Below, piece by piece: positions 15,542 through 64,000 of a stretch of 64,000 bases of DNA (within the stretch, counting starts at the first letter, position 1; each line of letters opens with the position of its first letter). The notes under the pieces are model-generated. The model was not told where the DNA came from, searched no databases, and saw only the letters and a program-made list of their open reading frames with translations. The stretch is from NCBI RefSeq assembly GCF_900343015.1, contig NZ_LR025108.1:1-64000 (forward strand), read 5' to 3'. The position numbers were made by a program, and so were the translations under genes. This stretch comes from Arsenophonus endosymbiont of Aleurodicus dispersus. GTDB lineage: Bacteria > Pseudomonadota > Gammaproteobacteria > Enterobacterales > Enterobacteriaceae.

Positions 15542-15544
15542 ATT

Positions 15545-19340: not shown

Positions 19341-19811
19341 TTATCCTTTAATAGCTTGAATTACATTAACCATTTCTAGTGCAGCTAATGTAGAATCTGC
19401 TCCTTTATTACCAGCTTTTGTACCAGCCCGCTCAATTGCTTGCTCAAGATCATCAGTTGTTAATACACCAAAGGCAACGGGAATATTACTAGTCATCGCG
19501 ACGTTAGAAAGGCCAGCACTACATTCACCGGCAACATATTCAAAATGTGGGGTTGCACCACGTATAACGCTAGCCAGTGCAATCACAGCATCATATTTTT
19601 GGGTTTCTACTAATGTTTTAATCGTCAAAGGCAATTCATAAGCACCAGGCACCCAAACTACTGTAATATTTTCTTTTGCAACTTGGCCAACACGCTCCAA
19701 GGTATCAATAGCGCCTTCCAACAAGCTATTGCTAATAAAATGATTAAACCGTGCAACAACGACTGCTATACGAGCTTTAGGTGCTGCTACCATACTTTTT
19801 ATTACCTTCAT
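19341..19811 (-). CDS. ribE: 6,7-dimethyl-8-ribityllumazine synthase
   Basis: Penultimate enzyme of riboflavin synthesis, joining the ribB product (3,4-dihydroxy-2-butanone 4-phosphate) with the pyrimidine from the ribD step. All 156 residues align with the E. coli enzyme (ribE, also called ribH): [33 protein letters not shown], the catalytic His in [12 protein letters not shown], and [19 protein letters not shown]. It lies between ribD and nusB. Confidence 0.96.
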
Positions 19812-19964
19812 ATCCTTCCTTAAATACTAATTAGTTTCTACATAAACTAGAATCTTACCATATTATTTTCTATACTGCGCTGATAAATTTAATAATGTTT
19901 AACCAGATTATTAGGAATGATGAATTGAATCAATTAAATACTACATTACTTAATGCTTAACTAA

Positions 19965-21089
19965 CTAGTTAAGGCATGGGCGAAGTGTTAAACGTAAATC
20001 AGGGCTAATAAGTTCAATATTAATAAATTCAAATGCTGGCGCATCTTTCAATTTTTGAATTGCTGGAATATTAATTAATTCTCTTGCCGTTCCACCTAAA
20101 ATTTTAGGCGCAATATAAACAATCAATTCATCAACTAATCCTAATGTCAACAAAGCAGCAGCAAGTGTTGGACCGCTTTCGACCCAAATTAAATTAATAT
20201 TGCATTTAGCTAGCTGCATCATCAGCAAAACTAAATCAATGCCTTTTTCGTCGGTTGGTATTGCAATTTGTTCAACATCACCACACCAATTTTGGTATAT
20301 TGGATTAGGGCGAATAAGCCAACATTTTCCATCTAATTTTGTTACAAAATGTTCTGGTTTTACTTGATTATGACGATCTAAAACAATTCTTATTGGCTGT
20401 CGAAGGCTATCTTTAGGATAAAGATTTTGTAACTGAGGATCAAAATCTATCCAACGAACATTTAAAAATGGATTATCAGCTAAAACAGTACTACTAGTGG
20501 TCAAAATTGCGCTAGCCTGTGCTCTAAAATTTTGTACATCTTGGCGAGCTTGTCGAGAAGTGATCCATTTACTTTTACCAGATGCAAGAGCTGTTCGCCC
20601 ATCAAGTGATGCAGCTAACTTAAGTTGAACATAAGGAAACCCTGTTCGCATTCTTTTTAAAAATCCCCTATTTAATTGTTCAGCTTCATCCATTAGTACA
20701 CCATGTAATACTTCGATGCCAGCCTGTTTTAATTTAATTAAACCCCGTCCTGCAACCTGTGGATTTGGATCTTGCATAGCCACAACAACTCTTCGAATGC
20801 CTGAACTAATTAACGCATCTGCGCAAGGTGGTGTGTTACCATAATGGCTACATGGTTCTAATGTGACATAAGCAGTTGCTCCGTTAGCTCTATCCCCCGC
20901 CATTTGTAATGCATAAATCTCAGCATGTGCCTCACCTGTTTTACAATGAAAGCCTTCACCCACAACTTCACTATTATGTACAATGACACAACCTACATTA
21001 GGGTTAGGTGAGGTAGTAAATCTACCTTGCTTAGCCAATGACAACGCACGGCTCATAAACTGATTATTATCAAACGTGGTAATTTCCAT
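19965..21089 (-). CDS. ribD: Bifunctional riboflavin deaminase/reductase RibD
   Basis: Two-domain enzyme for steps two and three of riboflavin synthesis. The N-terminal deaminase (to about residue 150) has the zinc motifs HAEIYAL and PCSHYGNTPPC. The C-terminal NADPH-dependent reductase contains LKLAASLDGRTALASGKSKW and WVESGPTLAAALL. Length is 374 residues (E. coli 367). The start was chosen at the first ATG; a second Met at residue 12 aligns with the E. coli MARALK and could be used instead. The nrdR gene usually upstream is absent; a secD remnant is adjacent. Confidence 0.95.
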   Translation of the reverse strand: MEITTFDNNQFMSRALSLAKQGRFTTSPNPNVGCVIVHNSEVVGEGFHCKTGEAHAEIYALQMAGDRANGATAYVTLEPCSHYGNTPPCADALISSGIRRVVVAMQDPNPQVAGRGLIKLKQAGIEVLHGVLMDEAEQLNRGFLKRMRTGFPYVQLKLAASLDGRTALASGKSKWITSRQARQDVQNFRAQASAILTTSSTVLADNPFLNVRWIDFDPQLQNLYPKDSLRQPIRIVLDRHNQVKPEHFVTKLDGKCWLIRPNPIYQNWCGDVEQIAIPTDEKGIDLVLLMMQLAKCNINLIWVESGPTLAAALLTLGLVDELIVYIAPKILGGTARELINIPAIQKLKDAPAFEFINIELISPDLRLTLRPCLN

Positions 21090-43596: not shown

Positions 43597-44399
43597 GAAT
43601 AATTTTAAATTCATTATAGTTAAACAAACCTATAAATATTAGCATGTATCAACATCATAATTACAATTTATGCTCCATTTAAATGTCTTAATTATATGTA
43701 ATTACTGAAAAATAAGTTAAATATTTTAATGTGAGCCAACATAATATTCATTATGCTCTCAATGAGCTAGCTAAAAAATAAAATTCAAAAACATCAGATA
43801 AATAATAGCTTTATTCAAGCATTATTAATACTTATCTACCACACCAATTGACCTAGTCGAAAAAACAGATTACTTAACATGTTATATGCTAAATATCTAT
43901 TGATATCGATACTATACCATAAGCTATTGTATATGATTTACTAAATCATAAAATTTTAATAATCGTTACTAATAATCTTAATGTTGTATACTTATGGCAA
44001 AAGATAATTTTTTTTTGCGCTTACTCTTAATAAAAAAAATTATAGGTTAAATTTTATAACTAAATTGCTATTAAATAAATCTTACCAACCAATAAGCAAA
44101 AATTACATTACAATATACGCATACTCACATATAGTAACAGTAATTTAATCTTTTAAAATAATTATTTCTAGATCTAGTTAAAACTTTAAGCAACAATTAA
44201 TATGAAATTAAATTATTTATTCTAAAATAAATTGGTTGAAGAGTAAGATGACGACATCTGGCGTAGAACTAAATTAAGTATATTTCTCATATTATGAGAT
44301 GAAAAGACGAATAAAACAATATTTAAATAAACATACAACACTCATGCACGCTATAAAACTTCTAGCGCAATTTGATTAATTACAACTAAATAAAAAAAG
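43597..44399. other. Gene-free stretch between nfuA and pfkA
   Basis: About 0.8 kb, very A+T-rich, stops in every frame, nothing recognised. Confidence 0.5.
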
Positions 44400-45377
44400 T
44401 TAATAAAGTTTCTTTACCGTATATAACCAATCCTGCTTAAAATTACGTGGCATATTTTCAATTACATCAATAATATCATGATGAACCAATTTATCATTTT
44501 GAATACCAACACAGCGGCCACTATACCCATGTAAAAGTAACTGAGTAGAGTAAACTCCCATACTAGATGCCAGAACACGATCACTTGCTACTGGACTACC
44601 GCCTCTCTGAATATGACCTAAAATAGTTGCTCGTGTCTCATGCCCAGTTTCTTTTTCAATATATTTTGCTAATTGATTTACATCATAAATATGCTCAGTG
44701 ATAGCAACAATAGCATGATGTTTACCTCTTGCTAAACCAGATTGAATCTCCATCAATAACTCTTCTTTATCAAAAGGTATTTCTGGCAATACCACAAATT
44801 CACAGCCGCCTGCAACCGCGGCGGATAAAGTTAAATAACCGCACTGACGTCCCATTATTTCAACTATTGAAATACGTTTATGTGAAGTTGAGGTATCACG
44901 TAAACGATCAATTGCCTCAACAATGGTATCTAAAGCTGTAAAATATCCAATCGTATAATCAGTACCAGCAACATCATTATCAATAGTTCCGGGTACCCCT
45001 ATACAAGGGAAGCCAGCTTCAGTAATCTTTTTTGCCCCACGATAAGAGCCATCTCCACCGATGACAATCAAGGCATCAATATTATATTTTCTCATATTAT
45101 CAATAATTTTAGCTCTTACCTGATCACTATCCCGAAATTGAGGAAACCGAGCAGAACCTAATAAAGTACCGCCACAATTAATAATATTAGAAACACTAAA
45201 ACGGTTAAGTTCTTTTATTCGATTTTCATAAAGTCCCATATAGCCATCATAAATACCATAAACTTCTAAATCCTCAGAAAGTCCCATTAGCACAACACTA
45301 CGAATAGCAGCATTCATTCCTGGCGCATCACCCCCACTAGTTAAAACACCAACTCTTTTTATTCCTTTTTTGTTCAT
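44400..45377 (-). CDS. pfkA: 6-phosphofructokinase I
   Basis: Commits fructose 6-phosphate to glycolysis using ATP. The 325 residues (E. coli 320) show the ATP-binding [23 protein letters not shown], the catalytic Asp in [29 protein letters not shown], and [13 protein letters not shown]. The N-terminus has a short basic extension ([16 protein letters not shown]). E. coli MGRYCGDLTL reads [10 protein letters not shown] here, a common variant. Confidence 0.96.
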
Positions 45378-45825
45378 GATGACCTATGATTTAATATATT
45401 GCCACAAGTATAAAAGCAATTATTTCATTAATTGTATTTATGAACATAATATTACATATGCATAAATAAATTTAACCACTAAAACTAAGTTTTAGCTAAA
45501 TACTTTACATTATATTATTTTTCTTTTTATTATAAATAACTATTTTTTACATCCAATAATCTATATCTAAAATAAATAATAACATCAATATAAAAACAAA
45601 AGTATATTATGATTATTTTTATGTCTGTAAGGTTTCCCATATTTTTTCCATTTTATTAGGAGTGTACTTTAATTACGTATAATTAAACCAGACTAAGTAA
45701 AATTTTCAATATACTAATAATGTGCGATTAATGATTTTATATGAAACTTGTTATATTCAACAAGCCAGTATTTATAATAACTTATTAGTTACAAGTTATG
45801 ATAATTAGTCAATTTACCTAATAAT
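45378..45825. other. Gene-free stretch between pfkA and yicC
   Basis: About 450 bases upstream of pfkA and downstream of yicC; no gene or clear promoter recognised. Confidence 0.45.
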
Positions 45826-46689
45826 CTACTCAATATTTTGGATCTGCTCACGCATTTGTTCTATTAACACTTTTAATTCAATAGCCGAATTAGTAACTTG
45901 GCTATTAATAGATTTTGAAGCCAAAGTATTTGCTTCACGATTAAACTCCTGCATCATAAAATCTAACCGTCGGCCAACAGCATATTCTTTTTTTAGAATA
46001 TTATGTGTTTCTTTCACATGAGTCTCCAGCCTATCAAGCTCTTCTGCAACATCAATATGTTGAGCTAATATGATTAGCTCTTGTTCTAATCGATTATTAT
46101 CGATCTGAATTTCTGCCTCTTCTAATTTTGTTAGTAATCGCTCACGCTGCCATTTCAAAATTTCCGGCATTTGACGACGTACTTGTTGTATTTCCTGAAA
46201 AATAGCATCTAAACGTTGCTCAATCATTATTTTTAGCATCTTTCCTTCTATTTCCCGATTAAGAACAAAATCATCCAACGCAAATTCTAATTCTTTAAGT
46301 AAATGCGTACAGATAACATTTAAATTCTGCTCTTGAGCTGATATAACACCATGCCAGCGAAGAATTTCTAACGGATTAATTTCTCCTTCACCACTAATCT
46401 TTTTTATCCAATTAGCAGTTCTAATCAATTGATTAGCTAACTCTTCATTCAGGACTAATTTACTCTGTTGATATGAACTAAGTTCAAAAAGTAAACTACA
46501 CTCTACTTTACCTCGTATTAATCTAGCACGTAGACGCTCACGAATAACAGGTTCCAAACTTCTAAATTGTTCAGGCAAGCGAATATAAGTTTCAAGATAA
46601 CGTTGATTAACGGAACGCAGCTCCCAAGCAGCACTTCCGCATTCAACTTTTATATCTCGTCGTGCGAAAGCAGTCATACTATGAATCAT
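45826..46689 (-). CDS. yicC: YicC-family endoribonuclease
   Basis: Member of the conserved YicC/DUF1732 family, reported in E. coli to be an endoribonuclease affecting small-RNA stability. The start at 46687-46689 (MIHSMTAFARRD) sits at good spacing from AGGGA and gives 287 residues, the E. coli length; an ATG two codons upstream leaves no room for the ribosome binding site. The C-terminal domain (VGRRLDFMMQEFNREANTLA, NSAIELKVLIEQMREQIQNI) is nearly invariant. It is divergent from rph, as in E. coli. Confidence 0.94.
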   Translation of the reverse strand: MIHSMTAFARRDIKVECGSAAWELRSVNQRYLETYIRLPEQFRSLEPVIRERLRARLIRGKVECSLLFELSSYQQSKLVLNEELANQLIRTANWIKKISGEGEINPLEILRWHGVISAQEQNLNVICTHLLKELEFALDDFVLNREIEGKMLKIMIEQRLDAIFQEIQQVRRQMPEILKWQRERLLTKLEEAEIQIDNNRLEQELIILAQHIDVAEELDRLETHVKETHNILKKEYAVGRRLDFMMQEFNREANTLASKSINSQVTNSAIELKVLIEQMREQIQNIE

Positions 46690-46807
46690 ATTCATTCCCT
46701 ATTAATAAAAATAAAATTATAACCTTGAGTTAAACCATTAAATAGGCATTCAATGTAAAAGAAAGTATAATATGCTACAAACATTATTTAACTAAGAATA
46801 TAACACT

Positions 46808-47524
46808 ATGCGTCCAAAAAATAGAGAGGCTAATCAAGTACGTCCTATAAAAATAACTCGTAAATATACTAAACATGCCGAAGGGTCTGTTCTAATTGAA
46901 TTGGGTGATACCAAAGTATTATGCAATGCAACAATTGAAGATGGCGTTCCTCGCTTTGTAAAAAAGCAATCACAAGGTTGGATAACAGCAGAATACGGTA
47001 TGCTACCACGAGCAACAAATGATCGTAATATACGAGAAGCAGCAAAAGGCAAACAAACAGGTCGCACTATGGAGATCCAACGCCTTATTGCCCGTTCTTT
47101 ACGCGCAGCTGTTAATTTAACACAATTAGGTGAATATACCATTATACTAGATTGTGATGTCATTCAAGCTGATGGTGGGACTCGTACCGCTGCAATTTCT
47201 GGTGCCTGTATTGCTTTAACTGACGCATTAAATAAAATGGTCGCAGAAGGAAAATTGAAAAAAAGCCCGCTTAAATTTATGATTGCTGCTATTTCAGTCG
47301 GCATAGTAAATGGCAAACATCTTTGTGATCTTCAATATAATGAAGACTATATCGCAGATACAGATATGAATATTGTCATGATAGATAATGGTAAAATAAT
47401 TGAAATTCAAGGTACTGCCGAAGGTGAACCATTTAGTCATGTAGAATTGCTCTCACTGCTTTCTCTAGCAAAAAATGGCTTACAAACTATTTTTACAGCC
47501 CAGAAAAACGCTTTAAATCAATAA
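46808..47524 (+). CDS. rph: Ribonuclease PH
   Basis: Phosphate-dependent 3'-5' exoribonuclease that trims tRNA precursors. All 238 residues match the family length, with [20 protein letters not shown], the arginine-rich [19 protein letters not shown], the active-site [18 protein letters not shown], and a late acidic patch ([10 protein letters not shown]). Some E. coli K-12 strains carry a frameshifted rph; this copy is intact. pyrE, its usual partner, is not found downstream. Confidence 0.96.
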
Positions 47525-48022
47525 ATTTAAACATATTTCTAGCTAAATTTTTATCTCTATTAAATTAAAGTTAAAATAAATTACATAACATATGATAAAT
47601 AATTAAATTATTATTTAATAAAGGAAAGGCTATGAAAGTAAATGCAGTATCCATTATTTTAAAGCATAATAATCTATCTGAGTAAACAATAAGCTTGTTT
47701 AGCAAATAAAATTGTAACTGTTTAATAGATATAAAATTGCTTGATAATTTGCCTTCACTAACATAAAATAACTTTTATTAGTACCATATATTAACTAATA
47801 AATAACTACTTTATTATTTATGCGCTTGAGTGAAAATGTTAAAATTCAACCACCTTTAGGATATAAAGGTTAAAAAAAAGAGCATATATAAGTATATTTT
47901 ACTTAAGTTAAGTTATTTTTATATAAGAGTTAATAAAATTTGCTGAGATAGACTCCTAAGTCTAACTAGGCAGTTATTTACAATATAAATCTAACGCTAA
48001 TTAGATTTTCAGAGGAGTAAGC
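47525..48022. other. Gene-free stretch between rph and rpmB
   Basis: E. coli has pyrE, slmA, dut, coaBC and radC here; all are missing or unrecognisable in 498 bases. A well-formed ribosome binding site (AAGGAAAGG) at 47620-47629 precedes a 17-codon open frame starting at 47632 (MKVNAVSIILKHNNLSE), probably the head of a vanished gene. Confidence 0.45.
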
Positions 48023-48274
48023 ATGTCACAAATATGTCAAGTAACTGGTAAGCGCCCGATGAGTGGTAATAATAGATCACACTCTGCGAATGCAACTAAA
48101 CGCCGATTTTTGCCAAACCTGCAATCACACCGTTTCTGGGTTGAATCTGAAAAACGTTTCGTAAAGCTTATTGTATCAGCAAAAGGTATGCGTATAATAG
48201 ATAAAAAAGGGATCGATGAAGTTCTTGCTAAACTTAGCTTGGTGAAAAATACTAAGGAGCTAAAAAATGGCTAA
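48023..48274 (+). CDS. rpmB: 50S ribosomal protein L28
   Basis: Large-subunit protein. The 83 residues match the 78-residue E. coli L28 through [40 protein letters not shown] and [19 protein letters not shown]. The tail [13 protein letters not shown] is longer than usual and the stop (48272-48274) lies inside rpmG, so the two genes overlap by eight bases. A strong AGAGGAG ribosome binding site precedes the ATG. Confidence 0.95.
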
Positions 48275-48434
48275 AATTATTAGAGATAAAATTAAACTAG
48301 TTTCTTCTAAAGGTACAGGTCACTTTTACACTACAACGAAAAACAAACGTTCTATGCCTGAAAAATTGGAAATAAAAAAATTCGATCCAGTTATTCGTAA
48401 GCATGTTATTTATAAAGAAGCTAAAATTAAATAG
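48267..48434 (+). CDS. rpmG: 50S ribosomal protein L33
   Basis: Large-subunit protein of 55 residues, the same length as in E. coli: [35 protein letters not shown], ending [10 protein letters not shown]. The zinc-ribbon cysteines of some L33 forms are absent, as in E. coli. An AAGGAG ribosome binding site (48254-48259) lies inside rpmB, consistent with coupled translation. Confidence 0.95.
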
Positions 48435-48453
48435 TTTCTTTATAAGAAGCCGA

Positions 48454-48475
48454 GCCTAGCGTAAAGCTAAGTTTT
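48454..48475 (+). terminator. Weak Rho-independent terminator after rpmBG
   Basis: CCTAGC / GCTAAG stem with one mismatch, a four- to five-base loop and a following GTTTTTAT, about 20 bases after the rpmG stop. It looks like an eroded version of a GC-rich enteric terminator. Confidence 0.45.
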
Positions 48476-49376
48476 TATATCGCTTTTTTATATAGCTTTA
48501 TTTTATCCGCCAATACTATATTAAAACGCATACAGACACGGCGGTAAATTAAATGAGTGACCTATCTGATTTTGCATAAACTAATTATTTATTACATAAA
48601 CAACTTTTACATAGCTCATCAGAATAAAGAGTGAACATCTATTTTTTTATAATTATTCAATAATGGTTTATATTACATTTTTCCAAGGATCAACTTTTAC
48701 GGTTAAATATTAAATTATTTTAGTAAAAACAAATTTAATTTTACTAACTGGAAATATAATATTGACTACCATTTTTCAGCAAGATATTCACCTAAGTAGC
48801 ATATTTCTTTAGGTCAAGTATCTTAGATATTAATCATAACTAGTTCAATTTATTTAGCGTCAATAATTATGCTAACCTTTTAGGTTACAAATTATAATCT
48901 CTAGATTAGATAGTAGCAGATGTTTAAATAATTTTAAACAATTATTATAAATAAATTAAACAGTAATAATAGATCTAAATTATCTAAATAACTACTTAAT
49001 CCTAAGATAGCTCAATATAAAAATATTATTTTATGATCTATTTTGTTATTGTTAATTGCTAATAAATTAGATTCAAGATATAGTTTAGTTATTTATATCA
49101 TGACTCAGTGAGATTCATCATCTAGCTGATGTGTTTGTTATTTTAATTTAATAAACAAGTACACAACCATTTTATTATAACAATTTGTAGTTGAAGTCAA
49201 CATCTACAATGAGATTATAGAACCAACGGTTATAGTCTATATGGGAAAAAATAATCTGGCGTTTTAACAACTGCAAATTTTATACAGATACAGATTTTTA
49301 GATACTTATTTGATTTTTTATATTTCTACGCTTGCCATGGTTATAGTAATTTTATATTTATTGACGAGGATTTACC
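48476..49376. other. Gene-free stretch upstream of ribB; no FMN riboswitch seen
   Basis: About 0.9 kb, very A+T-rich. In enterics the ribB leader carries a GC-rich FMN riboswitch (RFN element). I looked for its conserved core (AGGGCGGGG...CCCACCGGCGGT type blocks) and found nothing like it. Only a short spaced GACGAGGA ribosome binding site precedes ribB. mutM and other genes that follow rpmG in E. coli are not recognisable. Confidence 0.55.
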
Positions 49377-50030
49377 ATGAATCAGACATCACTTTCCGCG
49401 TATGGCAATCCAATCGAACGTATAGAGCGTGCTCTTGAGGCACTACGTCAAGGTAATGGTGTTATGGTACTTGACGACGAAGACCGTGAAAATGAAGGTG
49501 ATATTATTTTTGCAGCTGAAACTATGACAGTTGAACAAATGGCATTAACTATTCGCCATGGCAGTGGAATTGTTTGTCTTTGTATAACTGAAGAAAGACG
49601 CAATCAACTAGCATTACCAATGATGGTTAAAGAAAATTCAAGTCAATTCCAAACTGCATTTACTATTACTATTGAAGCTTCCGAAGGTGTTACAACAGGT
49701 GTATCTGCCAGTGATCGTTTAATAACTATCCGTAAAGCAATTGCCGATGATGCAAAACCAACCTTTCTAAATCGGCCTGGACATGTTTTTCCATTAAGAG
49801 CCCAAGAAGGTGGTGTATTGCAGCGTCGTGGTCATACTGAAGCTACTATTGATTTAGTTACTTTAGCCGGTTTTAAGCCGGCAGGCGTTTTATGTGAGTT
49901 AACAAATGACGATGGTACCATGGCCCGTATGCCAGAAGTACTTATCTTTGCTAGGCAACATGATATGCCGGTGATAACTATTGAGGATTTAGTAATCTAT
50001 CGTCAGCAATTTATTTTAAAACAGGGTTAA
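49377..50030 (+). CDS. ribB: 3,4-dihydroxy-2-butanone 4-phosphate synthase
   Basis: Makes the four-carbon unit of riboflavin from ribulose 5-phosphate. All 217 residues align with E. coli RibB: the acidic loop [71 protein letters not shown] and [13 protein letters not shown]. It is monofunctional (no GTP cyclohydrolase II domain). Together with ribD and ribE it covers much of the riboflavin pathway; ribA and ribC are not in the window. Confidence 0.97.
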
Positions 50031-50508
50031 TAGATTTAATAAGCTATTTTAAATAATTTAATTTTATTCTAAAACTAGTATCGTTATACTAAAATGGTGT
50101 CTATTAAACAACCATCATATCTCGCTAACTTTATTCTTAAACAATCAATTATTTAATAATACTAATTGATTTTTATTAATTAGTTTGATAAGTGATATCA
50201 GCAATCTAGTCTTTTTACCTGCATGTCTAACTTTCTCCAGTTTAGCAGTAAATAATTACTAGATTTATTAATTTTTTCAAATGCATGTTTACGTTTATCT
50301 AGTAATTTACACAAACCAGGATTACTTTATTTTGCTTTATGATATAATCACAATAAATTATTAGCATTTATAGTTAGTACTCATTTACCACTGGACTAAT
50401 GGTAATTTTAAAAAATATTTTTTTATCCTGATTCTTTAATTATACAATATTTTATTTTACTGATCTCATAACAACATTTAAATCATTAATTTTAGCATAA
50501 TATACCAT
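50031..50508. other. Gene-free stretch downstream of ribB
   Basis: E. coli tolC, nudF, cpdA and others lie between ribB and yqiA. No trace of them could be aligned in these 478 bases. Confidence 0.45.
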
Positions 50509-50690
50509 TATTGGAGCTGTCAGTTAAATTAACTACAAACAATACAAATTAATGTATTAACAGCGCCTGATTTAATTTAGCTATTACAACAAAATCGTCA
50601 AAATATTACCTATCACCTATCTTATCTAAGTAAACAATAACATCAGAATATAACCATACTTTATTTGTCTACTATTTTTCATAAATTATG
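50509..50690 (+). pseudogene. yqiA: YqiA esterase-family remnant
   Basis: One frame reads YWSCQLN-stop-LQTIQINVLTAPDLI-stop-LLQQNRQNITYHLSYLS, matching the late part of YqiA (DLKVMQIDPLEAPDLIWLLQQ). A possible NHTLFVYYFS follows, resembling the histidine-containing GGNHAFTGFEDYF. It lies just upstream of parE on the same strand, the E. coli position. Confidence 0.65.
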
Positions 50691-50777
50691 CGTTTTTATC
50701 TTTAGCAAAAACAAAATAAATAAAAAGTTATTAAAAACAGCTAAATAATTGTTATTATCATCAGTATATCAGCATTT

Positions 50778-50803
50778 ATTGGTATAATTAATTGGTATAA
50801 TTA
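50778..50803 (+). promoter_or_regulatory. Tandem duplicated extended -10 promoter of parE
   Basis: A 13-base unit (ATTGGTATAATTA) is repeated exactly twice in tandem. Each unit contains TGGTATAAT, a perfect extended -10 element (TGnTATAAT), at 50780-50788 and 50793-50801. The second copy would start transcription about 20 bases before the parE ATG. Confidence 0.6.
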
Positions 50804-50822
50804 ATCATAAATTAACACATAA

Positions 50823-52724
<1,902 letters not shown>

Positions 52725-52760
52725 TCAACTTTGTTAACCAGAGACTAAGGAATTAAATGA

Positions 52761-55016
52761 ATGAGTGAGATAACACACGATAGTGTAGAGCAGCAACTAG
52801 TTCATACCTTTACCGAAAATGCCTATCTCAATTATTCTATGTACGTTATCATGGATAGAGCATTGCCATTTATTGGTGATGGGTTAAAACCTGTTCAGCG
52901 CAGAATTGTTTATGCAATGTCTGAGCTTGGGTTGAGTAATGCAGCTAAGTATAAAAAATCAGCTCGTACAGTTGGTGATGTATTGGGAAAATATCATCCA
53001 CATGGAGATAGTGCTTGTTATGAAGCAATGGTGTTAATGGCACGACCATTTTCTTATCGTTATCCATTAGTTGATGGTCAGGGAAACTGGGGGGCCCCCG
53101 ACGATCCTAAATCTTTTGCTGCTATGCGTTACACTGAGTCTAGATTGACAAAATACGCTGAAACGCTCCTTAGTGAATTAGGATTGGGAACAGTGACCTG
53201 GACGCCAAACTTTGATGGAACATTAACCGAACCTCAAACACTACCGGCAAGATTACCCAATATTCTGTTAAATGGCACGACAGGTATTGCTGTTGGTATG
53301 GCGACAGATATTCCGCCACATAATGCTCGTGAAGTAGCAAGCGCATTAGTTGCTTTACTGGAAAATCCAGAAGCTGATCTAAAAATGTTGATGGATTTTA
53401 TTCCTGCTCCTGATTATCCAACAAAAGCAGAAATTATTTCTTCAAAAGAAGATATTCAAAAAATTTACCAAACAGGTCGTGGTTCTATTAGATTACGCGC
53501 TGTGTGGGAAAGAGATGATGGTAATTCCGTGATTACTTCACTACCTCATCAAGTTTCAAGTACTAAGGTGTTAGAGCAAATAGCTTCGCAAATGCGTGCC
53601 AAAAAATTACCTATGGTAGAAGATTTACGTGATGAATCAGATCATAAAACGCCAACGCGGTTAGTAATTGTACCTAAAAATAATCGGATTGATTTAAAGC
53701 AATTAATGACACATTTATTTGCAACTACAGATCTAGAAAAAAGTTATCGAGTTAATTTAAATATAATTGGCCTGGATAATCGCCCTGCAGTTAAAGGACT
53801 GGTTAAAATTTTAAATGAATGGTTATTATTTCGACGAGAAACCGTCCGTAACCGCTTAAATCATAGTTTAGAAAAAGTATTAAAACGCTTACATATACTT
53901 GACGCTTTATTAAAAGCTTATCTCAATATAGATAAGGTGATTAATATTGTTCATAATGAACATGAGCCTAAAGCAGTATTAGTGGCCCGTTTTATGCTTT
54001 CAGAAACTCAGGCTGAATCTATCCTAGAATTGAAATTACGGTATTTAGCTAAGCTAGAGGAATTTAAATTACGCGATGAGCAAGCTAAATTAGCTAAAGA
54101 ACGTAATAGACTACAAGCTATTTTAGGTTCTGAGAATTATTTAAATCACTTGATCAAGAAAGAAATTCAAACTGATGCACAAACTTATGGTGATAACCGT
54201 CGCTCACAACTTAAGGAGTGTATTGAAATAAAAACAATAAACGAAAATGGTATTTTACCTACTGAGCAGGTTACTATTGTCCTTTCTATTATGGGATGGG
54301 TAAGAAGAGTAAAAGGCTATGATATTGATCCTACTAATCTGAATTATAGACCAGGAGATGGATTCCTTAGTGCCGCAAGAAGTAAAACTAATCAACCAGT
54401 TGTTTTCCTTGATAGTACTGGACGTAGTTATTCCCTTAACCCTATTAATCTACCTTCTGCCCGCGGCCATGGAGAGCCGCTTAATAGTAAATTAGCATTA
54501 CCACCTGGCGCAACGATTAAATATCTATTAACTGCCCCTGAAGAGCAAAAATATTTGTTAGCATCAGATGCTGGTTATGGTTTTATTTGTACTTTTAGTG
54601 ACTTAGTAGCAAAAAATAAAACAGGTAAGACATTAATTACCTTACCTAATAAGGCAAAGGTACTGACACCATTAAAAGTCAATAATGAGCAGCAATATTT
54701 AATCTTGGCTATTACTAAAGTAGGAAGAATGTTAATATTTCCTGTTAAGGATCTACCTAAGCTATCTAAAGGTAAAGGCCATAAAATTATTAATATTACA
54801 GCGGCTCAATATGATAGCGGAGATGATTTGCTAATTTGGTTAATTGTTTTGCAACATCATTCTTCAATTACACTATCTTTTAGTAACCGAAAATTAAAAT
54901 TAAATTCTGAAGATTTACACAAATATCATGCTAAAAGAGGGAGTAGAGGTTATTCGTTACCTCGTGGATTACAGAATATTAAGAGTATAGAAGTAATTCC
55001 TCCTATTAATAGATAA
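52761..55016 (+). CDS. parC: DNA topoisomerase IV subunit A (ParC)
   Basis: DNA-cleaving subunit of topoisomerase IV. The 751 residues (E. coli 752) have the winged-helix region [19 protein letters not shown], the catalytic Tyr near residue 124 in [11 protein letters not shown], the coiled-coil tower, and a C-terminal beta-pinwheel. Ser and Glu at the quinolone-determining positions (HGDSACYE) are wild type. The pinwheel end ([14 protein letters not shown]) is complete. Confidence 0.97.
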
Positions 55017-55081
55017 TCTTATTAATAGATAATATTAGATTTTTTATTAGTTTATGAAGTTACTTATTATTTGAGATAAAT

Positions 55082-55815
55082 ATGCTAGCTATTATTCGTA
55101 TTATTATTTTTATCCTATTTATGATATTGGTTTGTGTGTTAGGTTGTTTTTATTGCTTATTCAGTCCAAGAAACCCACGTAATGTTATGTATTTTGGCAG
55201 AATATTTGGTAAATTATCTTATGTTTTTGGTATTACTATTATTAATCGGGTACCTTATGAATCAAAAAATTACGGTCCCAGTATTTATATAGGCAATCAT
55301 CAAAACAACTATGATATGATAACTATGTCAAATGTAGTACAACCAAATACTGTTACTGTTGGGAAAAAGAGCTTAATATTTATCCCTTTTTTCGGTTATC
55401 TATATTGGTTGACCGGTAATATTCTTATTAATAGAACAAATCGGACTAAAGCGCACAACACAATATCACATATTGTTAAGCAGATTAAAAAAAAAACCTT
55501 TCTGTTTGGATATTTCCTGAGGGAACTCGTAGTCGTGGGCGCGGTTTAATGAAATTTAAAACAGGTGCCTTTTATGCAGCAATTTCAGCTCAGGTTCCGA
55601 TAGTACCAGTCTGCTTATCTAAAACAGAAGGACGTATTAAACTAAATCGTTGGAATAATGGAATAGTGATTGTTGAAATGCTACCACCTGTTGATACAAA
55701 AAAGTATCACAGGGAAAATACCCGTGAATTAGCAGAATATTGCTATAATTTATTCAAAGAGAAAATTGCAGAATTAAATAAAGAAGTAGAAGAAATAGAA
55801 AAAAATATTAAATAA
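55082..55815 (+). CDS. plsC: 1-acyl-glycerol-3-phosphate acyltransferase, interrupted at an A10 run
   Basis: Makes phosphatidic acid, the precursor of all phospholipids. Codons from 55082 give an N-terminal membrane helix and the catalytic NHQNNYD (His73, Asp78). At the run of ten A (55487-55496) the frame shifts. The other frame continues NLSVWIFPEGTRSRGRGLMK and FKTGAFYAAISAQVPIVPV to the end. Adding one A restores a single 244-residue protein (E. coli 245) with no other lesion. Transcriptional slippage at such A runs is known to rescue genes in insect endosymbionts such as Buchnera and Blochmannia. I infer the gene is functional; otherwise it is a one-base pseudogene. Confidence 0.85.
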
Positions 55816-56184
55816 AATTTAATTTTATTTTTAATACAAATAAATTTCTACCTTGTCATATTTAATAGTGTATTGTTATTTTTATTATGATAAATTATTG
55901 TCATTAGTAACAAATAATTTATCATAAATTCTTCTTAAGAAGACCAGATAAATTATATCAAAGATCTATACTTATGAAGTAATACTTAGATTAATGGTAT
56001 AATAAATAGCTCGGTATGAATTGTATTTACTTAATCTGGAGCATGGATAAAATAAATTATCCATTAATATACCGCAAATATTTATGATCATTTGAATAAT
56101 GTTATATTAAACATATAATTAAAAATTAAATTTATATTTTTAATAAATAATTTTTCGGCAAATTTTTATAAATAAGAATTTAGT
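55816..56184. other. Gene-free stretch between plsC and apaH
   Basis: A convergent intergenic region of 369 bases at a synteny join. A short inverted pair, TAACAAATAATTTATCATA with TATGATAAATTATT, lies near 55885-55926. No gene recognised. Confidence 0.4.
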
Positions 56185-57012
56185 TTAAATAAGTTGTCTT
56201 TTTATAAGCGAAGGCTGTTGAAAAATTTTTTTATCTTCCCAACGTAATAACGTAAGTTTACCTCCCCAACAACAACCGGTATCCAGCCCATAAATATTTT
56301 CAGGTGTTCCCTTACCTTCAAGGGAAGCCCAATGACCAAAAATAATAGCATATTCTGGTGATATTTTTCGCGGCAGATCAAACCAAGGCTTTAAAGGTGG
56401 AGGTGTATTTTCAGGTTTATTTTTCCAGGTCATATTTAACAAACCATCAGGAAAACAATAACGCATACAGGTTAGGATATTAGTACTAAAACGTAAACGA
56501 GATAATCCTGTTAGATTGGGTGACCAGTTGTTCGGGATATCTATATACATAGAGTCGATAAATAAAGGATAGGTATCACTCCTAAGTGTAGCCTCTACTT
56601 CTTTAGCACACATCTGAGCTGTTGCTAAATCCCATTGTGGTGTAATCCCAGCATGCGACATGATAATTTTTTTCTTACTATCAACTTGTAATAATGGTTG
56701 ACGTCGTAACCAATTAACTAATTCATCAATATCAGGCGCTGTTAGTAATTTTTTTAGTTTATCTTTTTGTTTATTATAACTAATATTGGCATATACACTG
56801 ATAAGATGAAGATCATGATTACCTAATACCATTCTAATAGATGATCCTAATTTTTTAATGTAACGTAAAACATTGAGAGAATCAGGCCCACGGGAAACGA
56901 GATCACCGGTAAGCCATAAAATATCCTTTTGTGGCTCAAATTTTACTTGTTTAAGAAGTGCTATAAGTTCACGATAACAACCGTGAATATCTCCTATAAA
57001 ATAAGTAGCCAT
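56185..57012 (-). CDS. apaH: Diadenosine tetraphosphatase (symmetrical)
   Basis: Metallophosphatase that hydrolyses Ap4A to ADP and, in E. coli, removes Np4 caps from RNA. The 275 residues (E. coli 280) contain the phosphoesterase motifs [31 protein letters not shown] and [10 protein letters not shown], plus [17 protein letters not shown] near the end. It starts two bases after apaG ends on the same strand. The order pdxA-rsmA-apaG-apaH is conserved. Confidence 0.96.
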
Positions 57013-57014
57013 AA

Positions 57015-57392
57015 TTAATTGATTAGTTTTGGGATAGCAAAACGAAATACTGGGATATCAACATAAAAATTTTCCCCATAATGGTCTAACATAACATAAT
57101 GACCTTCCATGGTTCCCATGGGTGTTTCTATAATAGCACCACTAGTATAACGAAATTCAGCGCTTGGTTGAATGATAGGTTGCTCTCCTACCACACCCTG
57201 GCCTTGTACTTCAGTACGTTTACCATCACTATTAGTAATTAACCAATAGCGCCTTATTAACTTTACCGGCTTACGCCCAAGATTGCGAATAGAAACTGTA
57301 TAGGCAAAAATAAATCTATCTTCTTCTGGTAAGGATTGATTTTCAATATAAAAACTTTGAACTTGTATACAGATGTTAGGTTCATTTAGCAT
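57015..57392 (-). CDS. apaG: ApaG domain protein
   Basis: Small beta-sandwich protein of the ApaG/DUF525 family; its exact role is unsettled. The ATG at 57390-57392 ([17 protein letters not shown]) gives 125 residues, exactly the E. coli length. A GTG three codons upstream is unlikely as start because the GGGGTGG ribosome binding site overlaps it. Conserved blocks [21 protein letters not shown] and [15 protein letters not shown] are present. Confidence 0.94.
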
Positions 57393-57419
57393 ATTACCCA
57401 CCCCAAAAGTTTTTTACTA

Positions 57420-58229
57420 TCAGCAAGTAGTTTTAGCTAATTTTCTAGCTAAATTACAATAATTTTCTACTGAAATATTTTCAGCGCGGCAATTTGGATC
57501 AATACCTAATTGCGCAAAATCCTGCAAGGTAAATAAATCAATTAAACTATTACGAATCTTTTTGCGTCGTTGATTAAATGCCTGTGTAGTAATACGACTT
57601 AATAATTTAACATCACAAATAAGATAAGGGTTTCGTTGATGAGAAATTAATTTCACGACAGCTGAATCAACTTTGGGTGCTGGCGTAAAAGCCGACGCTG
57701 GTACAGCTAAGATAGGCATTATCTGACAATAATATTGCGCCATAACACTAAGGCGACCATATGCTTTAGTATTTGGTCTTGCGATTAAGCGATTAACCAC
57801 CTCTTTCTGGAGCAGAAAATTCATGTCTACTATAACATTAATATAAGTAAAAAGATGGAACATTAGCGGAGTTGAAATATTGTAAGGAAGATTACCAAAC
57901 ACTCTAAGGGATTGACCTTTTTCTTTCATTATTTCACCAAAATCGATCGTCATTGCATCGTTTGGTATAATTGTTAGTTTAGCGCTAAGCGCAGGATGCG
58001 CAGCTAAACGGACAGTTAAATCATGATCTAACTCGATTATCGTCATATTTTCTATATGCTCGCTAACAGGTAATGTTAGAGCACCTAAACCAGGGCCAAT
58101 TTCAACAATAGCTTGATCAGGTTTGGGATTAAAAGCAGTAACGATATTATCAATAATAAATTGGTCAGTTAAAAAATTTTGACCAAATCGCTTACGGGGA
58201 AAGTGCCCTTGATGTATTAGTTTATTCAT
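57420..58229 (-). CDS. rsmA: 16S rRNA dimethyladenosine transferase (KsgA/RsmA)
   Basis: Dimethylates A1518 and A1519 in the 3' helix of 16S rRNA, a late checkpoint in 30S assembly. The 269 residues (E. coli 273) show [19 protein letters not shown], the SAM-binding [10 protein letters not shown], the catalytic NLPYNIS, and [12 protein letters not shown]. The first eight bases overlap the end of pdxA, indicating coupling. A functional 16S target must be encoded elsewhere, since the copy in this window is a fragment. Confidence 0.96.
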
Positions 58230-59211
58230 TATTATTTTGTATCATGTTAATCGCTAATTTTAAGGCGGTTATAAAACTATTGACATCTGCTTTCCCACTT
58301 CCTGCTAGCTCAATAGCTGTCCCATGGTCAACCGATGTACGGATAAAAGGTAAGCCTAAAGTAATGTTTACAGCGTTGCCAAAACCTTGATATTTTAGCA
58401 CAGGCAGACCTTGATCGTGATACATAGTTAAAATCACATCAGCTTGGTTATGATATTTTGGTTGGAATATAGTATCCGCTGGGAAAGGACCATAAAGTTG
58501 CAATCCTTCATGACGCAATTTATTCATAACCGGTATGATAGTGTCAATTTCTTCATATCCCATATGTCCTCCTTCGCCAGTATGAGGATTTAAACCACAA
58601 ATATAAATTGCTGGTGTTTTAATCCCAAATTTACATTTTAATTCGTTATTTAAAATATAAATAACTTCTTGTAAGCTCTGGAAAGTAATTGCACTTGGAA
58701 CCTGCTTAAGAGGTAAATGAGTTGTTACTAGTGCAACACGCAATTTTTCTGTAGCTAACATCATGACCACTTTTTTTGTTTTACTTCTATCAGCTAAAAA
58801 CTCAGTATGCCCAGTAAATGGAATACCTCCATCATTTATAATGCCTTTATGAACAGGGCCAGTAACTAATGCTGAAAATTCACCAGTCATACAGCCATCA
58901 CAGGCGCGGCCAAGGGTTTCTATTACATAAGTGCTATTTTTTTTATTAAGTTGGCCTGCTTTGACCGGGGCAGGTAATTTTATCGGTAAAACAATCAATG
59001 TTTTTATAGCGTGGTTGTTATTCAATACTCCTGGCGAATATATAGTTAATTCTAATCCTAGTTGATTGGCTCTAGCTATCAGCAAGTCTGGATCAGCACA
59101 AGCTACTAATCTAACTGGCCAATTTAGTTGAGCTAATTGAATTAAAAGATCAGGACCTACTCCAGCTGGTTCACCGGAAGTAAGAACGATACTATGAGTT
59201 TTTTTTTCCAT
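58222..59211 (-). CDS. pdxA: 4-hydroxythreonine-4-phosphate dehydrogenase
   Basis: Step of DXP-dependent pyridoxal phosphate synthesis. The 329 residues equal the E. coli length and contain the metal-binding histidines in [18 protein letters not shown] and [16 protein letters not shown], plus [13 protein letters not shown] and [11 protein letters not shown]. With dxs and talB in the window it supports retention of vitamin B6 synthesis; the other pdx genes are not here. It starts five bases after the surA remnant's stop. Confidence 0.96.
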
Positions 59212-59216
59212 AAAAA

Positions 59217-59760
59217 TTACTGTGCATCACTATCATTAAAAATTTTTACATATGTAGATGCACGTAGTTCTTGCATCTAATTTTGTGCCTCTTCATTTAA
59301 TTTACGATTGAATAATAGCTTATAGGCATGATCTTTCTGTTTTACATCTGGTTTATCAACTTTACTTGTATCTTACAGCTGAATAAGATGCCAGCCAAAA
59401 GAGGAATAAATTAGTTTACTTATTTAAACTTTATTTCAAAGCATTAAACCATCACAAAATGATGGATAATACATATTAGGCATATTAGCTCACCACCACG
59501 TAATGCAGAACTTAGATATTGTGAGAATTTTTTAGCTGCTTCGGTAAAAGTTATTTGCCTAGTTTAAATTTTATGTCCAATTTTTTGTATTGTTGCATAT
59601 GCCTGTTCGTTATTCATAATAGGTGATAGCTTAGATATTTCACTTCGGTGACTGAAATAAGCATATTGATTGCTATATCACCTTTTTTAGCATGCTGAAT
59701 TTGTTGTCCTGCATTTATGGCGTTTCTTCTTACTATATCTACCATATTATATTATCTACG
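59217..59760 (-). pseudogene. surA: SurA remnant (periplasmic outer-membrane-protein chaperone)
   Basis: The minus strand gives, in changing frames, ISVTEV, SPIMNNEQAYATIQKIGHKI, QITFTEAAKKFSQYLSSAL, SSFGWHLIQL-stop-DTSKVDKP, and KLLFNRKLNEEAQN-stop-MQELRASTYVKI to a natural stop at 59217. These match the second PPIase domain and C-terminus of SurA. The N-terminal half is lost; 59761-60089 holds no recognisable sequence. Order lptD-surA-pdxA is that of E. coli. Confidence 0.9.
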
Positions 59761-60089
59761 CTGCTTTGTAGCACAACACCACAATAGTAGTAACTTTATC
59801 CAAAAGTTGTGGAGCAGCAAGTGTAATATCCCAAAATTCATTAAATTCTCATTTAATTAAATTATATTATAATTTTATCCTATATTTGATATATTAAAAT
59901 ATTAATTTTATTATAAAGCTCTTTGATAAGAGCCAATGCCATTGGCAAGTATATCCTGACTTTACAAATTATGCTTATTATTTCATTGATTATCATAGTT
60001 ACTACTGAAGTTTGGTTATTGCAACATTACCAATTTAGGATTATAGCCTATATTAATTGACCATAAGTACTATACTGTAACTAATCTAC

Positions 60090-61060
60090 TTGCTGGTTGG
60101 TTTTCTTTCAGCTCATGATAGTAATAGCTAGCAAAGCACCAGAAATTATAATTTATTTGAATTAAACGATCCGAATCCATGCTATATTCTGTCAAAACAT
60201 TCCCCTTGGTGATATCAACAAGCCATCTATTATACTGAAGTCAGCACGCAGTCCCAAGTTATCCGTTAAGCGTAAATAAGTATCACCAGACCATAATAAT
60301 GGTCCAGGATTACTTTTATCCTCAATAGGTAAATTATAATTTTCAATTTGGATCCTCTTAAAAGAGGATTTGTGTCCAACATAAAAATTAAACCGTTCAG
60401 TTAATTATTTATCATCAATACCTATTGTCGTAAGTTAGTTAGCTGAAGCGATACTATCAGATCTAATCGACTATATAGAATATAATTGTTGTAGTCAGTC
60501 AGCCTGTACTTATTGGTCGCTATAATACACATAAAGATATTGAATTATAGGTTCTAACGTTTATATATAATTACTATTTATCAGCAGAGCAGGTCACGTT
60601 CGAAACCAACTTTTGCATCATAAGTTACTGAGGGGAATATACGAGTAACTTGTTTTTTCAACTGGCTATCATCCAAGTTAGCAGATATATTCTGATTATA
60701 ATCAGTTATCATCACCCTTATATTAACACTAGCCTAACCATTTACTAATGGTAGGTTCAGGCGCGATATGTAACCGCGTGGCATCAATATTATTAGCCCA
60801 ATCACGGATTATAAGTGATAATTATGCATAAATTTTCAGATTACCAAAATCATATTTATGATAATTAAGGTCTAATTTTAGTACAGCTTTTTTTTTAAGA
60901 TTTGCTATTAGGTAAATAGAAAAAAATCTTAAATTGTTTATGCGTTTAATCGGCATAACCAAACCTGATTTTTAGGGTAATAGGTAAAATATTTTGAATA
61001 ACTAACTTTAGTATAATCAATATATAGATGAGTAGATTATTTAGATTACCTTTCACGATG
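60090..61060 (-). pseudogene. lptD: LptD remnant (LPS assembly outer-membrane protein)
   Basis: Fragments of the beta-barrel half of LptD appear in order on the minus strand: YIDYTKVSYSKYFTYY, LKLDLNYHKYDFGNLKIYA, DATRLHIAPEPTIS, QVTRIFPSVTYDAKVGFERD, PLLWSGDTYLRLTDNLGLRA and INYNFWCFASYYYHELKEN. They are separated by stops and shifts. The N-terminal jellyroll part is gone. LptD inserts lipopolysaccharide into the outer membrane; with surA also dead, this argues for a lipopolysaccharide-poor envelope. Confidence 0.88.
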
Positions 61061-61186
61061 GGTTGATGCTCTATATATTTCCTTCATCTATATGATCGTA
61101 TAGTAAAAAGTGAAATAATTAACGTATTGAATAGCTTTTATCTGTATAAAACTATCAGCTTATTTATTCAGGTTATTAGGCATAGA

Positions 61187-61221
61187 GTAGAATAATTTGT
61201 ATAATATCCTCATGAGGAGTT
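61187..61221 (+). repeat. 35-bp dispersed repeat, copy 2
   Basis: Identical to 36308-36342, with TATAAT and the palindrome TCCTCATGAGGA. Here it is followed directly by a second small hairpin, GTATCA-TATT-TGATAC. It lies between the lptD remnant (E. coli 1 minute) and rppH (64 minutes), a synteny break. Confidence 0.85.
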
Positions 61222-62159
61222 GAGTATCATATTTGATACTGAGATTGGAGATCTAATCATAGATTTAATTATTGATCATGCATATGATATAGTATAAGAA
61301 TATCAAGATTAAGATAAAATAAATGCTAAAAATAGCAATCAGAAACTATTGTTGTAAACATATTTCAAATATTAGGCCCTTTAAAGAAAACAAAAAAGCA
61401 TGTAATATAGTTTTAAACATTATTAAATAAATGTTCCAGATTGATAAAAATATACTTTATAAATGAAGTAAATCGGTGATCTATAAATTAGGTGAGTAAT
61501 ATAAAGTTATTCAGCATGTAATTATACACGTGAAGTACTAGTGGCGCTTTTAAAACAGCATAAAATATAATAGGATTACCTAGTAAAAATAAATCAACAC
61601 GTAGTTGGTGAGTGGTGACTAGTAATAGGAATAAGTTTAACTATCCTAGTTTGTGCCTGTTTTACCTGTTGTAAAACAGACTTACCAGCGCAGATAAAAT
61701 GCAAATAAATGAGTACCTAATAAATTTTATATAGTTACTATTTTAAGTAATTGATGCATTTATTACAGCATCAATTTTTGAGCTAGTTTAAGCTGCTCGC
61801 TAGTTACTTATTAAGCAGCTATCTTCAACTTAAAGATAGTTATAAACTAGTACCATAGCATAATTATTTTTCTTCTCATTTAAGATAATATCAAGTCAGA
61901 GGCCAATATAAGCTGGGCTATTTTACCCTTCTATTCTAAGGTAATTTTAAAATCAATACCCCATCATTGTAGGCCTTAACTAGGAATAAAAGCATCACAG
62001 GTGTAAACAGTTAAGATAGATTTTTTCCCCATATTATTCAATACTGAGTTCTACTATATAATTAAATTTAAATTGCATAGTAAATACTATATTAATAGTT
62101 TCCCATATAGATTAGTATAAAACAATGAGCTATCTTTAAAAATTTTAACGAGGTAGTCG
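61222..62159. other. Gene-free stretch upstream of rppH
   Basis: About 0.9 kb with no recognisable gene. It contains a perfect nine-base hairpin, CTGTTTTAC / GTAAAACAG, at 61657-61679 with a five-base loop, possibly a stranded terminator of a lost gene. A weak ribosome binding site (AACGAGG) precedes rppH. Confidence 0.45.
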
Positions 62160-62654
62160 ATGGTTGACAATAATGGCTACCGCCCGAATGTAGGAATGGT
62201 AATTTGTAATCAGCAAGGCCAGGTATTATGGGCTCGTCGCTATGGGCAACATTCATGGCAGTTTCCTCAAGGGGGAATTAATCCTGAAGAATCTCCAGAA
62301 CAAGCTATGTATCGGGAATTATTCGAAGAAGTAGGGTTAGATAGTAAAGATGCTAAAATATTAGCATCTACCAGAAAATGGTTAAGTTACAAATTACCAA
62401 AACATTTGGTGCGTTGGGACACTAAACCAATTTGTATTGGGCAAAAGCAACGGTGGTTTTTATTACAATTGGTATGTAATGAACATAATATTAATGTGCA
62501 AATAAGTAAAACGCCTGAATTTGATAGTTGGCGTTGGGTGAATTATTGGTATCCTGTTCACCAGGTGGTTTCTTTTAAAAGAGATATTTATCGCAGAGTT
62601 ATGAAAGAATTTGAGCCGATGGTTATGTTACTACAAAATAGTGCAATGACATAA
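62160..62654 (+). CDS. rppH: RNA pyrophosphohydrolase RppH
   Basis: Nudix hydrolase that removes pyrophosphate from the 5' end of triphosphorylated mRNAs, opening them to RNase E decay. The 164 residues (E. coli 176) start [20 protein letters not shown] and include the Nudix box ([16 protein letters not shown] followed by LFEEVGL), [10 protein letters not shown] and [14 protein letters not shown]. Only the variable C-terminal tail is shorter. A terminator follows, and ptsP, which separates rppH from lgt in E. coli, is gone. Confidence 0.95.
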
Positions 62655-62737
62655 AATAATGGCCATACCTGCTTAGCTAAATAAATTTAGTGAAAGTAGG
62701 TTAATCTATTTTTAATAGATAATTTTTTCAAATAAGT

Positions 62738-62770
62738 AAGAGTAGTTAAAGCTACTCTTGTTTGGGTTTT
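62738..62770 (+). terminator. Rho-independent terminator after rppH
   Basis: Perfect eight-base stem AAGAGTAG / CTACTCTT with a six-base loop (TTAAAG), followed by GTTTGGGTTTT, 84 bases after the rppH stop. Confidence 0.7.
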
Positions 62771-62850
62771 GAAAATATTTACTTGCTAAAATACGCGTTA
62801 AATAGATTTATTAATGAATTTAATCAATACTATATTAAAAAATAAAAACT

Positions 62851-63738
62851 ATGAATAATCATTATATTATGTTTCCTAACATAGATCCTGTTATATTCTC
62901 AATTAGTCCAGTAACCCTTCATTGGTATGGTTTAATGTATTTACTGGGATTTATTTTCGCTCTATGGTTGGCAAAGCGGAGAGCAGAAAAATTAAATAGC
63001 GGTTGGACTAAAAATGAAGTTGAAAATCTCCTTTATATTGGGTTCTTAGGTGTCTTTATTGGTGGACGTTTAGGTTATGTTTTATTTTATAACTTGCCAA
63101 CCTTACTGAGCAATCCTTTGTATCTATTTAAAGTTTGGAATGGAGGAATGTCCTTTCATGGTGGGTTAATTGGTGTGATATGCACTATGTGGTGGTATGC
63201 ATGTAGGACTAGACGCCACTTTTTCCAAGTTGCCGATTTTATTGCGCCATTGATTCCATTTGGATTAGGCATGGGACGAATTGGTAATTTTATTAATGGA
63301 GAACTTTGGGGACGTGTAATATTAGACATCCCATGGGCAATGTTATTCCCAAACTCTTGGGTAGAAGATATTCAGATTGTTAGTCAAGAACATTCTTTAT
63401 TACCTATTTTAGAGCAGTATGGTGTATTACCACGACATCCCTCCCAACTTTATGAGATGTTTTTTGAAGGGATTATTTTATTTATTATTTTGAATTTATT
63501 TATTCGTAAACCCCGCCCAATTGGCAGTGTATCAGGATTATTTTTGATTAGTTATGGCGTTTTTCGTATTTTTGTTGAATTTTTCCGTCAACCAGATGCG
63601 CAGTTAGGGCTATTAACTGGTATAAGTATAGGACAAATTTTGTCAATTCCTATGATCATTATTGGTATTTTTATTATGATCTTAATATATAAAAACAATC
63701 GATATTTTGTAAAAAATTTAATTATTAATAAGGCATAA
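62851..63738 (+). CDS. lgt: Prolipoprotein diacylglyceryl transferase
   Basis: Attaches diacylglycerol from phosphatidylglycerol to the lipobox Cys of prolipoproteins, the step before LspA. The 295 residues (E. coli 291) show seven membrane helices, [33 protein letters not shown] with the essential His, the Lgt signature [15 protein letters not shown], and [13 protein letters not shown]. Together with lspA and the CyoA lipoprotein it shows the first two lipoprotein-maturation steps are kept. Confidence 0.96.
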
Positions 63739-64000
63739 AATAATAAGTAGCAACATATTTTAATCTAGTTTTTGACTTATACTATTAAATAAATAATAAA
63801 TTATAAGCGAGTAATAATTGGGTAGAAAATAAACGCACAGGTGTAATCCTGATATTGAAGATAAAATAACCAATTTACTTTAATTACTACTAGTAAAAAT
63901 TTTTATAAAGCAACTATTGCGGAATGATTAGGTTATCTAATAGGTTATTCTTACACTGAACCATTTCAATATATTGGCTATAATACATGGAATGCCAACT
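63739..64000 (+). pseudogene. Possible thymidylate synthase trace (thyA) and unassigned sequence
   Basis: thyA follows lgt in E. coli. Near 63815-63850 one frame reads WVENKRTGV, faintly like the ThyA N-terminal TQKNDRTGTGT, but no further match follows. The last 75 bases are open in one frame (LGYLIGYSYTEPFQYIGYN) and I could not assign them. Nothing here is an intact gene within the window. Confidence 0.3.

Follow-up and report, generated by a model that had tools for sequence, protein, structure and literature searches.

A frameshift at a run of ten A in an otherwise sound plsC gene of a whitefly Arsenophonus symbiont: a candidate for rescue by slippage

The plsC locus

ARAD, the Arsenophonus symbiont living in the whitefly Aleurodicus dispersus, has a genome of 663,125 bases in a single contig, and the window analysed here is the stretch of 64,000 nucleotides (nt) at its beginning (NZ_LR025108.1, positions 1 to 64,000, forward strand). 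In this window the gene plsC, which encodes the lysophosphatidate (LPA) acyltransferase and is essential in E. coli, is frameshifted within a run of ten consecutive A. The locus occupies 734 nt (55082-55815, forward strand) and begins with an ATG at 55082. Around the run the zero frame reads ATT AAA AAA AAA ACC, and it ends after 155 amino acids at a TAA; the -1 frame is open from the run through to the TAA at the end of the locus (Table 1). Apart from the run, the 244 codons contain no stop and no length change in comparison to five relatives with a gene of 735 nt. In other words, the locus has one net indel, placed at a long A/T homopolymer, and is open elsewhere, which is the pattern of genes rescued by slippage.

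The frame change sits between the two conserved motifs of the family, HX4D and FPEGTR. Both halves keep their catalytic motif, as the sequence-only reading of the locus had claimed, i.e. NHQNNYD is found in the 5' part and FPEGTRSRGRG in the 3' part. In the genomic sequence the motifs are therefore in separate frames, and since HX4D precedes the run and FPEGTR comes after it, the unshifted product does not have the two on one polypeptide. The family model NF011593 (1-acylglycerol-3-phosphate O-acyltransferase, 245 positions) matches the 5' piece at positions 1-138 (E 7.1e-59, 199.5 bits) and the 3' piece at positions 137-241 (E 2.8e-43, 148.4 bits). Searched apart, the two pieces thus cover the model jointly, each scoring below its cut-off of 501 bits.

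An arrangement as a split gene with re-initiation was considered and rejected. The second open reading frame (ORF) begins past FPEGTR, so re-initiation alone cannot supply this motif, and two separate proteins would miss it. As to the neighbourhood, the parC-plsC adjacency is also present among the E. coli matches listed.

Table 1. Features at and next to the plsC locus (positions in the window)
Feature	Position	Strand	Basis
plsC 5' part, zero frame: N-terminus, HX4D (NHQNNYD), GNILINR	55082..55495	+	NF011593 positions 1-138
A10 run, frame-change site, net -1 relative to relatives	55487..55496	+	sequence, genus comparison
plsC 3' part, -1 frame: FPEGTRSRGRG, VPIVPV, C-terminus, stop 55813-55815	55489..55815	+	NF011593 positions 137-241
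TAA closing the unshifted frame; 155-amino-acid product without FPEGTR	55547..55549	+	
ORF of 88 amino acids, ATG overlapping the zero-frame TAA (TAATG), starting downstream of FPEGTR	55549..55815	+	
parC, intact, immediately upstream of plsC, control gene	52761..55016	+	
parE, intact, control gene	50829..52724	+	

Comparison with other Arsenophonus genomes

Each of the nine Arsenophonus genomes that were searched carries the gene, and in the eight besides ARAD (G001 to G008) its frame is open. It is exactly 735 nt long in five of these genus mates (G003-G007), so the ARAD gene is one base shorter. In all eight the A-rich stretch is broken by G, while ARAD has A10-CC: four genomes carry A7-G-A5 (G001, G002, G004 and G007), two carry A8-G-A5 (G005 and G006), G003 has A7-GG-A4 and G008 has A8-G-A4. 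The change in ARAD therefore comprises a net -1 and, within the same few bases, a G lost or changed and two A replaced by C. As judged from this comparison, the lesion may have arisen by a slip in a longer run or as one complex change, and the "one A missing" would be a net effect, not necessarily the plain loss of one A. The claim that a missing A is the sole lesion thus stands as regards other stops and length changes, whereas at the run itself substitutions accompany the net -1.

The CC at 55497-55498 takes the place of AA in the relatives. Such a replacement was found at none of the 2,313 AA pairs common to G005 and G004 in 26 control genes.

HX4D and FPEGT lie in one open frame in all 80 plsC loci kept, out of 581 confirmed, from a scan of genome contigs, a set that is biased towards intact genes because the search patterns contain these motifs. 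As regards sharing of the frameshift between lineages, plsC is open in 8 of the 8 other genus genomes, none of which is a sister in which the break might be shared.

Runs of A or T across the genome

Runs of A or T of at least nine bases occur 68 times in the genome: 14 have ten bases or more (one has eleven, so that overlapping matches number 15) and 54 have exactly nine. Of the 68, 39 fall within open stretches of 80 codons or more; two of these 39 directly precede thiI and cca, and three are in stretches matching no family. There remain 34 runs in recognisable genes, and the frame is kept in a family-matching protein at 33 of these, the only break being at plsC; this speaks for the frame at the run and not for the integrity of the whole gene, as many stretches are covered in part and the family match does not span the run in the YdjM and RNB proteins. 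Among runs of at least ten in recognisable genes, six are in frame and one, plsC, is broken. The in-frame cases include CyoB, dnaG (twice), RpoD, methionyl-tRNA synthetase, a DNA polymerase A family gene (twice), an RNB-domain protein, ribosomal protein S8 and ribonuclease P. As it is the sole frame break among 34 genic runs, the break at plsC is more than chance.

Genes broken at a run were also sought by a switch test that requires 35 or more open codons to either side of the run, by which shorter sides would be missed. Four runs were flagged, namely plsC, orn (464942-464950), 612970 and 266131. Two of these were rejected: orn is in frame to its C-terminus, and at 612970 the flagged strand is opposite an in-frame reductase-family gene. 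The run at 266131 has 36 and 35 codons in AT-rich sequence.

Some of the in-frame genes are of interest in themselves. The frame of dnaG is kept over two separate A10 runs, at 116383 and 117606 (L035, G000 115083-119115). The longest run, of eleven A (G000 452124-452134, L041), is in frame near the C-terminus of a gene with RNB and S1 domains (RNase R-like). The methionyl-tRNA synthetase frame (L036 236-1879) has 548 codons and its match ends at position 540 of a 676-position model; judging from this, the C-terminal part of the protein seems to be lost.

The in-frame runs also bear on the assembly. According to its describers (PMC6167482; here and below, papers with a PMC number are cited for excerpts of their text), the ARAD genome has a coverage of 1,698, 381 coding sequences and 274 pseudogenes, and it was sequenced on Illumina HiSeq 2000 from amplified DNA pooled by species, with Pilon correction. 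A text search of the main text of PMC6167482 gave no mention of plsC, frameshift or slippage. The consensus could be wrong, or the run polymorphic with many symbiont chromosomes carrying 11 A, and it speaks for this that there is one assembly, from whole-genome-amplified DNA pooled by species (PMC6167482). We consider it improbable, given the correction with Illumina reads at 1,698x coverage (PMC6167482) and the frame being kept at 33 of 33 other genic runs of at least nine, six of them ten or eleven long. A sequencing error in particular is unlikely because of the coverage. The break is thus real in the assembly, in a gene that is otherwise sound.

Genes of phospholipid synthesis

A second LPA acyltransferase was not found by a PF01553 search of the genome, which matched two places only, plsB and plsC (the latter giving two rows); the possibility of another plsC, raised together with the slippage proposal, is answered in the negative to this extent. 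The remainder of the pathway, as far as it was looked for, is open. The plsB gene has 805 codons, and the families of cdsA (287), psd (301) and pgsA (184) are found in open frames. A 452-amino-acid protein with PLD domains, also in an open frame, is pssA-like by size and domains, and we take it to be pssA.

Eleven other genomes of at most 1.1 Mb were compared. Six of them have one PF01553 match of 239-257 codons plus one of 783-837 codons, and five have no match at E 0.001; a plsB-sized match alone occurs in none. Were plsC dead and plsB intact, ARAD would stand out from these 11 genomes.

Selection on plsC

Selection was studied with a three-taxon codon model (ARAD, G005 and G004). The controls were 26 intact genes from parts 1-20000 and 44001-64000 of the window: 34 ORFs of G005 had a partner in G004 and a match in the window, and eight were dropped before this count, i.e. 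plsC, four shadow ORFs contained within other genes, and three eroded remnants that were scored apart. On the ARAD branch plsC has an omega of 0.214 (95% range 0.15-0.33, on a coarse grid), with a likelihood ratio test (LRT) value against 1 of 34.4. The values are 0.178 before the run (LRT against 1, 23.0) and 0.256 after it (LRT 12.0), a difference that is not significant (LRT 1.30). The 26 intact genes range from 0.064 to 0.351 on the same branch with a median of 0.153, and plsC is inside this range. The three eroded remnants have omega values of 0.39-0.56 and three to five stops in 59-161 codons; the codon method therefore detects decay, at low contrast.

Two of the remnants can be described further. 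The one at 15545-16053 corresponds to a 306-amino-acid ORF of the relatives, is broken into two pieces that differ in frame and have three stops, and lies just upstream of a 622-amino-acid ORF at 16161; presumably these are ispA before dxs. The one at 59220-59706 corresponds to a 237-amino-acid ORF of the relatives adjoining pdxA, and is in three frames with five stops.

Selection thus acted on plsC during most of the branch, and the gene either died recently or still works. Since the purifying selection on both sides of the run is measured over the whole branch, a recent break explains it as well. The possible length of a neutral phase was estimated with a two-phase model, in which an intact omega is followed by a neutral share at the end of the branch. 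With an intact omega of 0.157 the best neutral share is 8%, both 0% (deviance 2.3) and 20% being within the 95% limit; with 0.21 it is 2%, and 0-15% is allowed.

Discussion

The interpretation that we favour, with a probability of roughly one half, is that plsC remains in use despite a genuine -1 frameshift, some full-length enzyme being made through insertion by the polymerase and perhaps also through -1 slippage of ribosomes. Since the run of ten A is net -1, an insertion is needed, the direction favoured on A/T runs. RNA polymerase would slip backward on the ten A and add one A to a fraction of the plsC messages, and such messages would encode the full-length LPA acyltransferase. Most of the product would be the 155-amino-acid fragment, and the allele would be a leaky hypomorph. 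On general grounds, a run of ten A is likely to allow a degree of correction. Single-base insertions predominate in the A/T runs of E. coli and Buchnera and rise exponentially with length, and 151 of 157 insertions of Buchnera were in homopolymeric tracts (PMC5574713). In frameshifted genes of one aphid symbiont and one ant symbiont 12-50% of the transcripts are corrected (PMC5009743), and under laboratory selection frameshifting indels in repeats of 3-8 bases were bypassed (PMC3812077). It is quite possible, if on balance slightly doubtful, that phospholipid synthesis in ARAD runs via a single enzyme made from slipped messages or ribosomes only, the gene being leaky but selected and caught soon after its break.

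The ribosome offers a route to the same protein that the sequence-only reading did not include. Because the run reads ATT AAA AAA AAA ACC in the zero frame, a -1 slip on A_AAA_AAA, programmed or adventitious, would yield the needed frame and may contribute. Frameshifting on A runs has long been known (PMC5009743), and the heptamer is present. However, A_AAA_AAA is weaker than A_AAA_AAG in E. coli (PMC5009743), the predicted fold of the downstream RNA is not better than that of shuffled sequences (z -0.94; 26 of 200 shuffles equal it), and by eye there is no clear Shine-Dalgarno-like stimulator upstream. It is thus very improbable that ribosomal frameshifting is the main route, with little slippage of the polymerase.

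Several observations weigh against a gene that is still used. The omega of plsC is above that of 22 of the 26 intact genes, and that of its 3' part above 23 of the 26. On the background branches the order of the two parts is reversed (0.121 before the run, 0.065 after it), and the pairwise values behave likewise: 0.18 (5') and 0.32 (3') between ARAD and G007, 0.10 and 0.06 between G007 and G004. These values lean, without significance, towards some relaxation after the break, as a recent downstream loss of function could give. If the intact omega is set to 0.10, the two-phase model has its best neutral share at 15%, allows 5-25% and excludes 0% (deviance 10.7). The frame being kept at all 33 other genic runs implies that selection removes such breaks elsewhere. 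As for slippage itself, the excerpts of a transcriptome-wide study report no frame-restoring transcription error in Buchnera (PMC5574713), and with the RNA polymerase of E. coli slippage is weaker on poly(A) than on poly(T), rescue being undetectable with fewer than eight A (PMC6260861). Finally, the ARAD genome is described as having 274 pseudogenes (PMC6167482).

These points lead to an alternative, which we regard as possible and on balance rather doubtful, i.e. that plsC is a very young pseudogene. The run would have mutated recently and too little PlsC would be made, the acylation of LPA being either not needed or provided by the host or by a partner symbiont, and erosion would not have begun. 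A long A run is the likeliest place for a fresh indel. The large number of pseudogenes (PMC6167482), the eroded neighbours in the window, the comparatively high omega of plsC and a neutral share of up to 20 or 25% of the branch (at least about 5% being demanded in the latter case) are in line with this, as are the five small genomes without a PF01553 match. On the other hand, the 734 nt show just the one lesion, plsB and the remaining pathway genes that were sought are open, and each of the 11 small genomes has either both a plsB-sized and a plsC-sized match or neither. What had been proposed from sequence alone, namely that plsC is a candidate slippage gene, is supported in part, by the slippage-prone run, the direction of the insertion, the purifying selection, the open pathway and the PF01553 search, which gave no second plsC-like gene, while a young break explains the same data.

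Slippage as a means of rescue was correctly said to have been described for insect endosymbionts. Tamas et al. (2008, PNAS) and Wernegreen et al. (2010, MBE) reportedly found that frameshifted poly(A) genes of Buchnera and Blochmannia are rescued by slippage of RNA polymerase, and the slippage-rescued frameshift is as a kind already known from these genera (PMC5009743, PMC3017870). Like those genes, plsC belongs to a reduced, AT-rich insect symbiont and has a single indel in an A run with the remainder conserved. The difference is that their transcripts were measured, with 12-50% (PMC5009743) and 30% (PMC3017870) corrected, whereas plsC is known from sequence alone; moreover, some of their frameshifts are common to several species, and the ARAD break has no known sister lineage sharing it.

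A close parallel is Blochmannia vafer, in which eight genes have homopolymer indels beside 153 coding poly(A) tracts of at least nine, four of the frameshifts being peculiar to this species (PMC3017870). There too the candidates come from sequence, some being essential in E. coli (dnaG, dnaX, pth; PMC3017870), and the broken share is similar to the 1 of 34 genic A/T runs in ARAD. On the other hand, ARAD is of another genus and host, plsC is a phospholipid gene, and dnaG, frameshifted in B. vafer (PMC3017870), is in frame in ARAD. The visC gene of B. vafer has one indel, within 11 consecutive A, which its authors ascribed either to a gene rescued by slippage or to erosion of very recent date; B. 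floridanus has no visC (PMC3017870), whereas plsC is found in every Arsenophonus genome searched. With the -1 ribosomal site of dnaX (A_AAA_AAG; PMC5009743) the plsC run has in common the A-rich slippery codons and the direction, but it contains no G, has no stimulator that we could find and is not conserved in the relatives. A slippage-rescued gene named for Arsenophonus was not found among the matches listed, which cover open-licence literature; one paper joining the two terms, PMC5091035, in its excerpts treats replication slippage in symbionts in general.

If the favoured interpretation is true, slippage rescue would extend to a symbiont whose association is described as more recent than those of other primary hemipteran symbionts (PMC6167482), and an essential step of membrane synthesis would run on errors of transcription or translation. 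Annotation that calls such genes dead would then misstate the capacity of reduced genomes. As the only break in 34 genic runs, plsC is a clean natural test between a frameshift tolerated through slippage and the first step of gene death.
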